Source: Orenia metallireducens (GTDB lineage Bacteria > Bacillota > Halanaerobiia > Halobacteroidales > Halobacteroidaceae). Taken from it: a stretch of DNA of 48,923 nt. Below are positions 5,130-32,073 of the stretch, piece by piece. Location: assembly GCF_001693735.1 (NCBI RefSeq), contig NZ_LWDV01000008.1, forward strand, positions 471,415 through 520,337. The letters run 5' to 3'. Positions within the stretch are counted from its first letter, which is position 1, and the number at the start of each line of letters is the position of its first letter. The notes beneath the pieces are model-generated. The model saw only the letters and a list, made by a program, of their open reading frames with translations. It did not search any database and was not told where the DNA came from. The position numbers and the translations under genes were made by a program.

Positions 5130-5195
5130 TGTTAATCTTGTGTTAAGTATCTTGTTGTGAGTAATTTTATTAGGTTACATAACATAATATTAACA
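5130..5195 (+). promoter_or_regulatory. asnB control region with 11-bp phased half-sites
   Basis: TGTTA at 5130 and 5141 (11 bp apart) and TAACA at 5180 and 5191 (11 bp apart), the same half-sites and spacing as at the nif, amt and gln promoters in this window. The predicted -10 position (GTTACA) is poor, so the exact promoter is uncertain. Confidence 0.55.
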
Positions 5196-5233: not shown

Positions 5234-7075
5234 ATGTGTGGAATTGCAGGTTGGTTAAATTGGGAACGTAACTTAAGAAGAGAGCAAGGTATTGTTGGGA
5301 TGATGGCTGATTGTCAGCAGAAGCGTGGTCCTGATGAAAGAGGAGAATGGAGTTCAGAAAATGTGGCTTTGGCTCATAGAAGATTGATTGTTATTGATCC
5401 AGAGGGTGGAAAGCAGCCGATGGTTAAGAAGTATCAGAACAATCAATATGTTTTAGTTTATAATGGTGAGCTATATAATACTGAAGATTTGAGAAGAGAT
5501 TTAAAAGCAGAAGGTCATTCTTTTGAAGGTCACTCTGATACAGAGGTCTTATTGACTTCCTACATAGCTTGGGGCTCAGAATGTGTTAAGAGGTTAAATG
5601 GTATCTATGCCTTTGCTATTTGGGATAAGTCTAGGGAAAGGCTCTTCTTAGCAAGAGATCGAATAGGTGTTAAACCACTCTTTTATACTGAGCAGGAGAA
5701 TGGATTCTTATTTGCATCAGAGTTGAAAGGCTTGTTATCTCACCCTGAAGTAGAGGCTAGGATTGATGAAGATGGCTTATCAGAAATATTTACTATAGGT
5801 CCAGGTAGAACTCCAGGGCATGGAGTTATTAAAGGGATTAAGGAGCTAAAGCCTGGTTATTCGATGGTAGTCAATCGTTATGGAATTAAAGAGGAGCAAT
5901 ACTGGAAATTAGAGAGTAAGCTCCATCAAGATGATTTGGAGACTACTATAGCTAAGGTTAGAGAGTTATTTATAGATACTGTAGAGCGACAGTTGGTCTC
6001 TGATGTTCCTATCTGTACACTATTATCAGGGGGATTAGATTCTAGCGCGATTAGTGCAGTTGCTAGTAGAGCTTTTATTAGAGAAGGTAAAGAGAATATA
6101 GATACTTATTCAGTAGACTATGAAGGAAATGAGGATCATTTTGAAGCCAATGAGTTCCAACCAGATCCTGATGATGTCTGGATTAAGAAGATGACAGATT
6201 ATTTAGGAACTACTCACCACTATATTAGGCTCAGTAATGATAAGTTGGTAGAGGCTTTAAGGGATGGGGTCTATGCCCGTGACTTGCCAGGGATGGCAGA
6301 TATAGATGTTTCTTTATATCTATTCTGTAAAGAGATTAAGAAGAAATTTACTGTAGGGGTTTCTGGAGAGTGTGCTGATGAAATCTTCGGTGGATATCCG
6401 TGGTATCATAATCAAGATGCTTTAGAGGCAAATACCTTTCCTTGGTCAAGAAAGCTAGATGATAGAGTTAAGATATTATCTACTGATTTGATAGAAAGAA
6501 TTAACCCTCAAAAGTATATGGAAAACCGTTATCAAGAAGCGTTATCTGAGGTTCCTCGTTTGGCTGGAGAGAGTGGAATTGAAGAGAGAATGAGAGAGAT
6601 GTTTTACTTGAATCTGACTCGTTGGATGCCAACCTTACTTGACCGCAAGGATAGAATGAGTATGTATACTGGCTTAGAGGTTAGAGTTCCTTTCTGTGAC
6701 CATAGATTGGTAGAGTATGTGTGGAATATCCCGTGGGAGATGAAGAATGTTGGTGGTAGAAGAAAGGGAGTGTTACGTGAAGCATTAAAAGGTATTTTAC
6801 CTGAGGATATTAGGTTAAGACCGAAGAATCCTTATCCCAAGACCTTTGACCCAGCTTATTTTGCAGCTACTAGAGATTGGTTATTAGAGATTATCAATGA
6901 TAATAATTCACCAATTCTTGATTTGATTGATGTAGATTATATTCGTAAGCTAGCTGCAAGTGATGGTGATTTTGATATTCCGTGGTTTGGTCAGTTGATG
7001 AGATTGCCACAGTTATTTGCTTATTTAATCCAGGTCAATGTCTGGTTAGAAGATTATGGAGTTGTAATTGAATAG
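5234..7075 (+). CDS. asnB: Asparagine synthase (glutamine-hydrolysing)
   Basis: 613 aa. Class II glutamine amidotransferase domain starts MCGIAGW, with Cys2 as nucleophile after removal of Met; the synthase domain has the ATP pyrophosphatase loop SGGLDSS (residues 265-271). It makes asparagine from aspartate with glutamine as nitrogen donor. The start is fixed by the N-terminal cysteine and the AAAGGAGGAG site. Monocistronic, bounded by a strong terminator. Phased TGTTA and TAACA half-sites upstream suggest nitrogen control. The family also includes enzymes amidating other substrates, but full length and motif content fit AsnB. Confidence 0.92.
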   Translation: MCGIAGWLNWERNLRREQGIVGMMADCQQKRGPDERGEWSSENVALAHRRLIVIDPEGGKQPMVKKYQNNQYVLVYNGELYNTEDLRRDLKAEGHSFEGHSDTEVLLTSYIAWGSECVKRLNGIYAFAIWDKSRERLFLARDRIGVKPLFYTEQENGFLFASELKGLLSHPEVEARIDEDGLSEIFTIGPGRTPGHGVIKGIKELKPGYSMVVNRYGIKEEQYWKLESKLHQDDLETTIAKVRELFIDTVERQLVSDVPICTLLSGGLDSSAISAVASRAFIREGKENIDTYSVDYEGNEDHFEANEFQPDPDDVWIKKMTDYLGTTHHYIRLSNDKLVEALRDGVYARDLPGMADIDVSLYLFCKEIKKKFTVGVSGECADEIFGGYPWYHNQDALEANTFPWSRKLDDRVKILSTDLIERINPQKYMENRYQEALSEVPRLAGESGIEERMREMFYLNLTRWMPTLLDRKDRMSMYTGLEVRVPFCDHRLVEYVWNIPWEMKNVGGRRKGVLREALKGILPEDIRLRPKNPYPKTFDPAYFAATRDWLLEIINDNNSPILDLIDVDYIRKLAASDGDFDIPWFGQLMRLPQLFAYLIQVNVWLEDYGVVIE

Positions 7076-14433: not shown

Positions 14434-14511
14434 TGTCAAAATAATAAAAATCACATTGATATAATAGCTTTCATACCTTATAATTAACATATACATAACA
14501 TAAAGTTTACA
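14434..14511 (+). promoter_or_regulatory. amt-MCP promoter with triple TNACA operator
   Basis: -35 TTGATA (14456-14461), 17-bp spacer, -10 TATAAT (14479-14484), then TAACA at 14485, TAACA at 14496 and TTACA at 14507, each 11 bp apart and starting at the base after the -10. An upstream TGTCA lies at 14434, 51 bp before the first half-site, as at the glnA promoter. Confidence 0.8.
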
Positions 14512-14525
14512 TTAAAAAGGAGTGG

Positions 14526-16778
14526 ATGGTGTTGAAAAGAATGATGATTTCTGGTGTTTTATTATTGTTAATCTTCTTTATAGTATCTAATACAGTTTGG
14601 GCAGAAAGTGTAGTAAGAAGTGAGGAAGAGGTTGCTATTGATACGGTATGGACTTTGTTATCTGCTTTTTTAGTTTTCTTTATGCAGGCTGGTTTTGCGA
14701 TGGTGGAGGCTGGTTTTACTCAGGCTAAGAATGCAGGGAATATTATCATGAAGAATCTAATGGATTTTTCTGTGGGTTCTTTGATTTATTGGATTTTAGG
14801 GTTTAGTATCATGTTTGGGGTAGGGGGTAAATTTATATCATTTAATGGCTTGTTTTTAAAAGGGGATTTTAGTCACTTGGGATTGGATATTCCATTACCT
14901 GCTTTTTGGTTATTTCAAGTTGTCTTTGCTGGAACGGCAGCAACTATTGTTTCTGGAGCTATAGCGGGTAGGACGAAATTTAATGCATATTTGATATGTA
15001 GTTTGGTGATTAGTGGCTTTATCTATCCTGTAGTCGGTTATTGGATTTGGGGTGGTGGCTGGCTAGGTGATATGATCGATTTTGCTGGTTCTACCGTTGT
15101 TCACTCAGTAGGTGGGTGGGCTGCTTTGGCTGGGGCGATAGTCTTGGGACCGAGGATTGGAAAGTATAATGAAGATGGTTCTGCCAATAAGATTCCAGGG
15201 CATAATTTATTAATGGCTGCTTTAGGTGTATTCATCTTATGGTTTGGTTGGTTTGGCTTTAATGCGGGGAGCACTCTTGCAGGAACTAATTTGGATATCG
15301 CTTCTATAGCCATGACGACTAATTTGGCTGCTGCTGCTGGAGCGAGTTTGGCTTTACTTACTAGCTGGCTTAAATCTGGAAAGGCTGATGTTGGCATGAC
15401 CTTAAATGGTGCTTTGGCAGGTCTGGTAGGGATTACAGCAGGGACAGCCAGTGTCAATGATTTTGGAGCTGTGGCTATAGGTGCTATGGCAGGAGTTGTT
15501 GTAGTTTTTGCAATGGATATGATAGAAGGTTTATATGTAGATGATCCTGTTGGTGCTGTGTCGGTACATGGGGTATGTGGTATTTTTGGAACATTGATGG
15601 TAGGTTTATTTGCAACAGAAGGTGGATTCTTTTATGGAGGGGGGGCTGGGTTATTTCTTATTCAATTAAAGGGTGTACTAGCTGTAGCTCTTTGGACTTT
15701 CTCTCTATCATATATTCTTTTTAAATTAACTGATCTAATCATTGGTTTAAGGGTTTCTAATGAAGAAGAGATAAAAGGCTTGGATATTTCAGAGCATGGA
15801 TCTAGTTCCTATCCTGATTTCGGTTCTTTAAGTGGTAGGGTTATCGAGCAGGTATTGTTAGGGTTGAATAAGATGGCTGAAGGTGATTTCAGTACACAGT
15901 TATTCTTAGATGGCTTAAATGACAGTGAAGATAAATTAATAAATGTCTTTAACAGGACAAACAGAAAGGTTAAAGCTTTGATTAGTGACTTGGCTAAGAT
16001 GATTAATACTTTGACTTCTTGTAGTGAAGAGTTGTCTTCGGTTGTTGAAAAGAGTAATTTGATAGCAGAAAGTACTGTGGTTAATATCGATAGTATGAAG
16101 CTTGGTATCGGTCAGATTTCGGCTGGAAGCCAAGAGGCTAGCGCTCTTTCCCAAGAGGCTGCTTCTAAAACTGAGATTGGTAGTGCTAGCTTAGGAGATG
16201 CTATTTTAAAGATGGAAGAGATAAATGACTCTGTAAAAGTAGGAGTTGGAGCTATCAATCAATTGGTGGGTAATTCTAATGAGATAGGTGATATTGTGAA
16301 GATGATTAATGATATTGCTTCTCAAACAAATCTATTGGCTTTAAATGCAGCTATAGAAGCGGCTCGTGCTGGTGAAAAGGGGCGAGGTTTTGCAGTTGTT
16401 GCAGAAGAGATTCGGATCTTGTCCCGCAATACTAGTCAGGCGACCGATAAGATTAGAGATTTGATAAATGAAACTCAAGTTACTTCTAGAAAGAGTCTAG
16501 AAGCTGTAACTGATGTTGAAGAGAAGGCTTTAACTGGTAAGAATGTTATTGAAAATGCGGGAAGTGTTTTTAGGGATATAGAAAATTGCATCGTTGATGC
16601 AGCCGCTAATATTCAAGCTTCTTCAGATGATGCTCAAGGATTAGTTGTTGTAGGTGAAGAAGTTGAGAGTGGTGCTAATGATATTGCTGTTATGTCTCAA
16701 AAGCTTAGATTATCATCTCGAGAATTAATGTCTTTGGCAGAAGGATTAAAGAGTTCTGTAGATGGTTTTACTGTTTAA
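14526..16778 (+). CDS. Ammonium transporter-chemoreceptor fusion (Amt-HAMP-MCP)
   Basis: 750 aa in one uninterrupted frame. Signal peptide (1-28) and an Amt/Mep domain to about residue 415, with the pore D185 and twin histidines H193 (GSTVVH) and H348 (AVSVHGVCG), so ammonium conduction looks intact; the PII-docking tail [15 protein letters not shown] is kept. From about 438 a HAMP-like segment ([13 protein letters not shown]) leads into a methyl-accepting signalling coiled coil with the highly conserved tip [20 protein letters not shown] (about 601-620). Likely an ammonium-sensing receptor, possibly also a transporter, acting through CheA/CheW. The Amt part closely resembles the amtB at 34352. 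The ribosome site would suit ATG 14526 or TTG 14532. Promoter carries the nitrogen operator. Confidence 0.92.
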
Positions 16779-17011: not shown

Positions 17012-17132
17012 TAACATATTAATGTAATGTATTTGTAATATATTTGTTATGTTTGTGTTAAGTTTGGTAAAAAAATCTATTTTTTTCTTGACATAGGATA
17101 AAAATAAGATTATAATTAACACATACTTAACA
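17012..17132 (+). promoter_or_regulatory. nifH promoter with phased upstream and downstream half-sites
   Basis: -35 TTGACA (17088-17093), 17-bp spacer, -10 TATAAT (17111-17116). TAACA follows at 17117 and 17128. Upstream, reverse-oriented half-sites TGTAA 17023, TGTAA 17034, TGTTA 17045 and TGTTA 17056 are spaced exactly 11 bp; a TAACA at 17012 is also 11 bp from the first. Such a layout could allow activation from upstream and repression over the start site. Confidence 0.8.
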
Positions 17133-17234: not shown

Positions 17235-18119
<885 letters not shown>

Positions 18120-29662: not shown

Positions 29663-30017
29663 ACATATGTAGGTACTTATGGAAGTTATTATTCTATTTA
29701 GATATGAGTTTATCTGATTGAAAACATAAAAAATAACTGAAATGCTCTCGATTAAAAATAGAATTCAAATAACTTTACAGCTGTTTATAATTTTTATCAT
29801 TAATTCAAAGTAGGCTTTAATGGATAGTAATAGTTAATGGGGTATTGGGACAGTGACAAGTGACAATCCCTTTTAATTGTATTGAGTTTTCTATCGTAAG
29901 ATATTAACTTACCACAAATTTGGGGAGGTGATAAAGCAACCGACGCTACTATTTTACATCAATGTGTAAACTATTAGAAAACATATTGAAATTATTACCA
30001 AAAAAGATGCTGTATCA
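29663..30017 (+). other. Intergenic region modB-nifV
   Basis: About 350 bases with no supported gene and no recognisable modC remnant. A GGGTATTGGGACAGT string at 29838 resembles the left end of the interspersed repeat and may be a remnant. A GGGGAGGTGATAAAG string near 29932 looks like a ribosome site but leads only to a 13-codon frame. Confidence 0.5.
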
Positions 30018-30087
30018 TTGACAAAAACTCAAGGTTGAAGTATAATTAACATATACCTAACATAAAAAAATAATGATAATTATTTTC
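30018..30087 (+). promoter_or_regulatory. nifV promoter, TAACA operator and Fur-box-like site
   Basis: -35 TTGACA (30018-30023), 17-bp spacer, -10 TATAAT (30041-30046), TAACA at 30047 and 30058 (11 bp). Just downstream, AATAATGATAATTATTTTC (30069-30087) matches 16 of 19 bases of the Fur consensus, so iron control is possible in addition to nitrogen control. Confidence 0.72.
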
Positions 30088-31232: not shown

Positions 31233-31330
31233 TGTTAACTATATGTTAATCAACAATAAATTTAAATAAAAGACTTGACTTATTAAGTTTTAAACCTTAT
31301 AATTAACGCATAATTAACACTAAATTTACA
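31233..31330 (+). promoter_or_regulatory. glnR promoter with phased half-sites
   Basis: -35 TTGACT (31275-31280), 17-bp spacer, -10 TATAAT (31298-31303), then TAACG 31304, TAACA 31315, TTACA 31326 (11-bp steps). Upstream TGTTA at 31233 and 31244, also 11 bp apart. Suggests autoregulation. Confidence 0.78.
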
Positions 31331-31411: not shown

Positions 31412-31657
31412 ATGATGCTTGATGTAGGTGCAGATACTCCTGCTTATACTATTGGAGTGGTTGCAGATATGACTGGTCTAACAGCCAGACAGATTCGTTA
31501 TTATGAGAAGGCTGAATTACTTAAGCCTGTTAGAACAAAAGGGAATCAGAGATTATATTGTCAAAAAGACATCGAAAGGCTTGTTCAGATTAAAAAACTG
31601 CTGAATAAAGGTTTGAATGCAATAGGAATAAAGAAGATTTTGGATGAGCAAGGATGA
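31412..31657 (+). CDS. glnR: GlnR/TnrA-type MerR-family regulator, short form
   Basis: 81 aa. The winged-helix part closely follows Bacillus GlnR: YTIGVVADMTGLTARQIRYYE, KPVRTKGNQRLY and KKLLNKGLNAIGIKKIL. It ends right after this domain, so the C-terminal tail through which GlnR (about 135 aa) and TnrA (about 110 aa) sense feedback-inhibited glutamine synthetase is absent. Start ATG 31412 has the GAGGTGAGGG site; a TTG eleven codons earlier has weaker support. Between nifV and glnA, its promoter carries the same TNACA repeats as its presumed targets. Probable regulator of the nitrogen genes here. Confidence 0.85.
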   Translation: MMLDVGADTPAYTIGVVADMTGLTARQIRYYEKAELLKPVRTKGNQRLYCQKDIERLVQIKKLLNKGLNAIGIKKILDEQG

Positions 31658-31735: not shown

Positions 31736-31824
31736 CGTCAGGTTTGTGTTAATTTTTTAAAAAAACCCTTGACACTTTATCACAAAACCTTTATACTTGA
31801 CATATAACTAACATATACCTAACA
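31736..31824 (+). promoter_or_regulatory. glnA operon promoter with triple half-site operator
   Basis: -35 TTGACA (31769-31774), 17-bp spacer, -10 TATACT (31792-31797), then TGACA 31798, TAACA 31809, TAACA 31820, each 11 bp apart. Upstream TGTTA at 31747 and a CGTCA 11 bp before it. Confidence 0.8.
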
Positions 31825-31875: not shown

Positions 31876-32073
31876 ATGTGTTTTGTAATGAAAAATGTTA
31901 ATGTGACCAGTGAGCATGGAAGTTATAAATCAGATGTTGTTGTGAAAGATAATAACGTTGTAATGGTTGGCAAAGGCATTAAAATAGATGGTATTAAAGA
32001 GATAGATGGAGCGAATTTAGTTTCTGAAAGTATTATAACTTGGTTTTCTGGTTCAAAAGAAGACCTAATTTAA
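31876..32073 (+). CDS. Small CooT-like protein
   Basis: 65 aa starting [15 protein letters not shown], with alternating short beta strands ([19 protein letters not shown]). The length and N-terminal MCxV are like the CooT family of small nickel-binding proteins, in which Cys2 is the metal ligand; the match is by pattern only and moderately secure. First gene after the nitrogen-responsive promoter and 16 bases before glnA, so it is expressed with glutamine synthetase. ATG chosen behind GAGGTGA. Role with glnA unknown. Confidence 0.55.

Follow-up and report, generated by a model that had tools for sequence, protein, structure and literature searches.

GlnR and TnrA are textbook palindrome-binding dimers, and in Bacillus subtilis the two are paralogs that share sites. 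All known GlnR/TnrA structures are palindromic dimers (PMC9249791, PMC5859096). At the nif operon of Paenibacillus polymyxa, GlnR acts as an activator at an upstream site and as a repressor at a downstream site (PMC6191146). BldC of Streptomyces, which is MerR-like and consists of the wHTH only, binds variable numbers of direct repeats as head-to-tail oligomers and in 2018 was, to its authors' knowledge, the sole MerR-like regulator on direct repeats (PMC5859096). In the open-access literature, we found neither a record of an 11-bp direct-repeat architecture for the GlnR family nor, for Orenia or Halanaerobium, a study addressing GlnR sites. Members of the genus Orenia are anaerobic halophiles of the Halobacteroidaceae, class Halanaerobiia. 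In the present study, we analysed a 48,923-nt stretch of the Orenia metallireducens genome (hereafter, the window), in which rows of half-sites at 11-bp steps flank the nifH promoter, and followed the same pattern through the nitrogen-gene promoters of the class.

Opposed half-site arrays at nitrogen-gene promoters

The nifH gene (17292–18119, forward strand; TIGR01287, 458.7 bits) is preceded on the same strand by a −35 box TTGACA (17088–17093) and a −10 box TATAAT (17111–17116), separated by a 17-bp spacer. Upstream of this promoter, four half-sites on the forward strand (TGTAA at 17023 and 17034, TGTTA at 17045 and 17056; array 17023–17060) follow one another at a strict 11-bp step, with every position as the initial annotation of this DNA had given it. 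Relative to the predicted start, the row is centred roughly 65 to 98 bp upstream, and its last half-site lies 27 bp from the −35, a distance previously put at about 28 bp. The opposed array that had been described downstream of the promoter is likewise present: TAACA-N6-TAACA on the reverse strand (half-sites at 17117 and 17128; array 17117–17132) starts at 17117 with no gap after the −10, spans the expected start site and stands 61 bp from the last upstream half-site. The third 11-bp register of this downstream array (17139) is taken by a reversed TGTAA. At the outer end of the upstream row, a TAACA at 17012–17016 lies 11 bp ahead of the first TGTAA and forms an everted pair with it; a similar NNACA is found in both sister genomes.

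This layout is reminiscent of sites I and II at the P. polymyxa nif operon, where a MerR-type GlnR uses TGTNA/TNACA half-sites upstream of the −35 and near the transcription start. However, each of those sites is a palindrome, TGTNAN7TNACA, and the two lie 118 bp apart, with site II 24 bp after the start (PMC6191146), whereas Orenia nifH carries rows of two to four direct half-sites at 11 bp, with the downstream row touching the −10 and 61 bp between the arrays. The canonical GlnR box, the 17-bp palindrome TGTNAN7TNACA, does not occur in the window.

Several nitrogen genes lie near nifH, namely asnB (start at 5234), an amt-chemoreceptor fusion (amt-MCP, 14526) and a PII-family gene (18280), with nifV (30073), a short GlnR-like gene (31412) and glnA (32090) further along the window. 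Triple arrays on the reverse strand follow the −10 at amt-MCP (TAACA/TAACA/TTACA, 14485–14511, after TATAAT 14479–14484) and at glnA (TGACA/TAACA/TAACA, 31798–31824, after TATACT 31792–31797); at glnR, such a triple (TAACG/TAACA/TTACA, 31304–31330) comes directly after TATAAT 31298–31303. A pair at nifV (30047–30062, reverse strand) follows TATAAT 30041–30046, and a lone TGTNA at 29965 precedes this pair by 82 bp. On the upstream side, pairs with the same 11-bp step had been reported before glnR (TGTTA-N6-TGTTA at 31233 and 31244; 31233–31248, forward strand) and asnB (TGTTA at 5130 and 5141), and both agree to the base, the glnR pair being retained in the sister genome G007. Equally exact is the 51-bp distance claimed between single forward-strand elements (TGTNA) and the first half-site downstream, both at glnA (31747–31751, measured from 31747 to 31798) and at amt-MCP (14434–14438, from 14434 to 14485). 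At asnB, the upstream pair is opposed by TAACA at 5180 and 5191; these are pattern positions, with no strand assigned, and a search of this region (5130–5195) for a clear −10 found none.

Two of these loci have further features. The frame at 14526–16778, which is preceded by a −10-anchored array, encodes an ammonium transporter with a fused chemoreceptor signalling domain, and similar long amt frames occur in several relatives. A small ORF of about 65 aa (31876–32073), located between the glnA promoter and glnA, is conserved in all three Orenia genomes.

The window contains 12 TGTWA-N6-TGTWA pairs, against 1.04 ± 1.04 in shuffles (largest 5). In a first-order Markov simulation of 40 Mb with the same dinucleotide composition, 797 pairs, 4 triples and no quadruples arose, corresponding to 0.98 pairs and 0.005 triples per window, whereas the window holds three triples (a count that includes two within the quadruple) and one quadruple. 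The four-copy pattern is found once in the 3.47-Mb genome and three times in eight family genomes, with no match for the reversed control. A fixed-spacer version of the unit (TATRTGTTANN repeated) proved too strict, with 3 matches in 13 genomes.

Only three of the eight family genomes possess nifH. In the aligned upstream regions, one sister Orenia (G006) has TGTTA, GGTTA, CGTTA and TGTAA at 11-bp steps, and the other (G007) has TGTTA, TGTTA and TGTCA. The three-genome Orenia alignment further shows the −35 to be conserved and the −10 to be invariant, and the stretch TATAATTAACAYATACTTAACA is identical in all three nifH upstream regions except for base Y. The distance from the last upstream to the first downstream half-site is 61, 61 and 71 bp, the longest belonging to G007, in which a 10-bp insertion, about one helical turn, keeps the phase. 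Conservation of the array spacing in close relatives had been named in advance as a test, and the spacing is indeed kept in both sister genomes as well as in promoters across the class. About 260 bp upstream of its nifH promoter, G007 additionally carries a second nifH-like −10 plus array (TATAATTAACACATACTTAACA; L024, G007:C7:68836 and 68575), apparently a promoter duplication.

An 11-bp step across Halanaerobiia

Upstream regions of glnA, glnR, amt, nifH, nifV and asnB were gathered from 59 Halanaerobiia genomes. In the 152 nitrogen-gene upstream regions that come from GlnR-bearing genomes, same-orientation TGTNA pairs number 127 at step 11, compared with 4, 4, 5 and 2 at steps 9, 10, 12 and 13; steps 22 and 33 are raised too, with 23 and 8 strict pairs, respectively. 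The half-sites are found in two layouts. In layout A, which is shared by amt, glnA, short glnR, nifH and nifV promoters of four families, two to four TNACA in 11-bp register begin immediately after TATAAT. In layout B, seen in the glnR-glnA promoters of the other families, the motif is TNACA-N6-TTGACA and the second half-site is itself the −35; among 22 such promoters, the 11-bp step accounts for 21 pairs, and steps 10 and 12 are not represented. We considered whether the 11-bp step could be due to the −35 alone and rejected this explanation, because the −10-anchored arrays contain no −35.

An unbiased order-wide search for TATAMT directly followed by TNACA-N6-TNACA matched 41 times, most often at glnA, glnR, amt, nifH and nifV, while the reversed control matched 5 times. 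Six translated layout A matches at other genes concern three polar-amino-acid ABC transporters, a PucR-like regulator, a hydantoinase-type amidohydrolase cluster and a malate/lactate dehydrogenase-like gene, names that come from reading the translations and not from a family search. The −10-anchored array ahead of the malate/lactate dehydrogenase-like gene (L182; G006:C4:297908) is less clear and could be a surprising target or a fortuitous match. At glnA of two other genomes (L060 in G025 and L061 in G029), the six-base spacer between the half-sites is the −10 box itself (TGACA-TATACT-TAACA and TAACA-TATACT-TGACA, respectively), which is an extreme overlap between putative operator and promoter. 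The nifH promoters of genus g21 (four genomes) have no such arrays, though GlnR is present.

The upstream half-sites are also regularly placed. At least one TGTNA lies 45 to 110 bp upstream in 36 of the 45 layout A promoters, the remaining 9 having the downstream array without an upstream TGTNA in this range. Altogether, 66 TGTNA occur there against 22 ± 5 predicted from composition, and the innermost is mostly positioned at 50–52, 59–62, 71 or 82–83 bp, with few exceptions. For a 10.5-bp period, the Rayleigh test gives R = 0.745 (P = 2e-9) with all 36 promoters and R = 0.775 (P = 3e-6) for the 21 that remain when each genus is allowed a single promoter per gene, a rule that lessens relatedness without removing it; the fit is similar for periods from 10 to 11 bp. 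Six control 5-mers, rearranged or altered forms of the half-site, give R of 0.25 to 0.36. The upstream TGTNA half-sites lie on one helical face, in fixed phase with the promoter.

The region around the TGTWA rows is A+T-rich, as would be expected if they were chance or UP-element-like features to which no dedicated protein binds. We regard this reading as scarcely credible: no four-copy array appeared in the 40 Mb of simulated sequence, the enrichment is confined to step 11, a comparable phase is absent for the altered 5-mers, and sister species keep the 11-bp register while the letters diverge.

The candidate regulator of the arrays

The half-site of the arrays, TGTNA/TNACA, is that of GlnR/TnrA, and its occurrence at promoters of nitrogen-assimilation genes, including glnR itself, is a further trait shared with the GlnR box; nevertheless, the arrays are a variant and not a canonical box because the 17-bp palindrome is lacking. 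The half-site, the regulator family and the autoregulation of glnR are likewise common to the glnRA operators of Bacilli. In 79 named glnR promoters, mostly from Bacilli, palindromic 12-bp pairs number 70, and direct steps of 10, 11 and 12 are represented by 30, 34 and 29 pairs; these steps appear largely to reflect the distance to the −35 TTGACA, with 11 not being selected there. The 152 Halanaerobiia promoters yielded only 9 palindromic pairs (background 2.6), and 7 of these 9 have a neighbouring half-site at 11 bp. Six promoters of the class fuse TGTNA-N7-TNACA, in register, to an 11-bp half-site that terminates in the −35. Four of them, at glnA (G008, G009, G010 and G012), read TGTAA-N6-TGTNA-N7-TNACA-N6-TTGACA, with the palindrome at the centre and an 11-bp half-site on each side, and those at glnR (G019 and G020) combine the palindrome with one 11-bp half-site. 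These fused promoters represent the strongest link between the putative operators and MerR-type GlnR.

Direct repeats at 11 bp are also known to be bound by the OmpR/PhoB-type family. The arrays could accordingly belong to a response regulator of this type, either PhoP-like or nitrogen-specific, with GlnR as a bystander, and the TTAACA half-site and 11-bp step do resemble Pho boxes. As a phosphate control, we inspected the pstS promoters of 30 genomes and found such arrays there as well: three of these promoters (L188, L189 and L190) carry 11-bp TTAACA arrays that reach four or more copies. Such arrays are also present where GlnR is lacking, with 11-bp repeats at pstS in GlnR-negative genomes such as G014, G017, G018, G045 and G047. 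Moreover, the actinobacterial GlnR is of the OmpR type (PMC9249791). The resemblance between Pho boxes and the nitrogen arrays is, however, restricted to TTAACA-like units at 11 bp. Pho boxes are direct repeats that belong to phosphate genes and cover or precede the −35, and the nitrogen arrays are not of this kind: the repeats at pstS are located upstream and, where the promoter is readable (G000), over the −35, not after the −10. The spacers differ too: the fourth base is A in 86% of the nitrogen repeats, whereas the Pho repeats have T there in 58% and A in 31% of cases. Furthermore, Pho arrays occur in GlnR-negative genomes, where nitrogen arrays were not found; at glnA promoters of genomes without detected GlnR, the array is present in 0 of 14, a contrast confounded by clade, with the absence of GlnR judged at E 1e-12. 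Together with the MerR-GlnR palindrome standing in register with the arrays in six promoters, these differences render it improbable that GlnR is a bystander, and an OmpR-type binder, while possible, is less likely than GlnR. We consider it likely that the array is the operator of MerR-type GlnR, a candidate assignment in which the half-site is used across the class mainly as 11-bp direct repeats and not as the 17-bp palindrome.

The O. metallireducens genome encodes two GlnR paralogs, the short one beside nif-glnA (31412–31657, forward strand; 81 aa, MerR_1) being a MerR-type wHTH only, with no C-terminal tail. Its best PDB sequence matches are GlnR (4r4e, 7tec and 7tea), followed by TnrA, and for its AlphaFold model (pLDDT 91.5) the top Foldseek match is the GlnR-DNA complex 4r4e. 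The score of the short protein falls below the NCBIfam TnrA-type cut-off. BldC does not appear among the proteins nearest to it in sequence or fold. With an N-terminus of Bacillus length, the short GlnR offers no simple truncation that would explain the direct-repeat operator; this end is about five residues shorter in the proteins of families f6, f7, f9 and f10. We also rejected the possibility that the direct repeats are read by the short GlnR alone, since one genome (G002) has only the long form, yet carries a four-copy array at amt.

The long GlnR (about 135 aa) is found beside a purR-like gene in all 8 family genomes. Tails of long GlnR proteins, such as GDLSRIYP (G025), GELSSLYP (G028) and GLTSLYPVS (f1), resemble the glutamine-synthetase-binding consensus XG(E/D)XSRF (PMC9249791), and the long form is the presumed nitrogen sensor. 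In P. polymyxa, truncation of the GlnR C-tail raises DNA affinity and abolishes the response to glutamine synthetase (PMC6191146), and the tail-less short GlnR is for this reason expected to bind without glutamine synthetase control. The short form thus probably binds the same arrays as the long GlnR without such control, and the two would perhaps function like the TnrA/GlnR pair of B. subtilis.

Proposed assembly on the arrays and possible control of nitrogen fixation

With half-sites recurring every 11 bp, or about one helical turn, such a row calls for a head-to-tail order of identical subunits. Most likely, several GlnR wHTH domains would occupy neighbouring half-sites in this order, cooperatively and along a single DNA face. 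By analogy, the regulator of the arrays may work like BldC without being a member of that family: the BldC unit is of 9 bp and AATT type (AATTCGGAC repeat) with another half-site, whereas the Orenia arrays have a step of 11 bp and the unit TGTNA, and the candidate protein is GlnR-like. At nifH, the downstream array starts at the 3′ edge of the −10 and spans the expected start site, a position suited to a repressor, and when occupied under nitrogen excess it would block RNA polymerase. The upstream array, in the opposite orientation, stands at a distance from which RNA polymerase is within an activator's reach. It would contact the polymerase and activate transcription under nitrogen limitation or, alternatively, would pair with the downstream array and so reinforce repression.

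The initial annotation had proposed that two opposed arrays flanking the promoter could either form a loop, or activate from upstream and repress from downstream, as in Paenibacillus. The reading as opposed nitrogen-regulator arrays, attributable to a GlnR-type protein and similar in layout to the Paenibacillus sites, is supported, and the phasing across many promoters and genera fits either mode of action. A small repression loop of about 61 bp around the promoter, with GlnR bridging both arrays and the upstream array acting as a repression element, would agree with the opposed orientation of the arrays, with helical phasing in 10-bp steps and with the 10-bp insertion tolerated in G007. A loop bridged by glutamine synthetase has been proposed for nif of P. 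riograndensis, according to its citation in PMC6191146, but the mutant analysis in P. polymyxa gave the loop model no support (PMC6191146). The 9 of 45 promoters without an upstream TGTNA in range argue that the downstream array can stand alone. Furthermore, because the downstream array has a fixed offset from the −10, phase relative to it is inseparable from phase relative to RNA polymerase, and the latter explains the data equally well. On balance, we consider looping rather unlikely. Tentatively, we picture the GlnR of Halanaerobiia as a head-to-tail polymerising regulator, a model that may quite possibly be correct but that we do not put forward with confidence: monomers would add at 11-bp steps from either side, the classical palindrome, a convergent pair, would be only one of two possible contacts, and nitrogen fixation would be switched between activation and repression by filaments that oppose each other around the promoter along a fixed helical face.

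The promoters assembled here form a clean set with which activation can be separated from looping, and TATAAT followed at once by TNACA-N6-TNACA would provide a usable signature for annotation. For nif control in anaerobic halophiles, on which we found no regulation study in the open-access literature, the arrays offer an explanation at the level of the DNA. It appears that the nitrogen regulon of a whole bacterial class has been rebuilt around direct repeats of the GlnR half-site at 11-bp steps, and the six intermediate promoters, in which both forms are present, make the evolution of operator symmetry directly testable.
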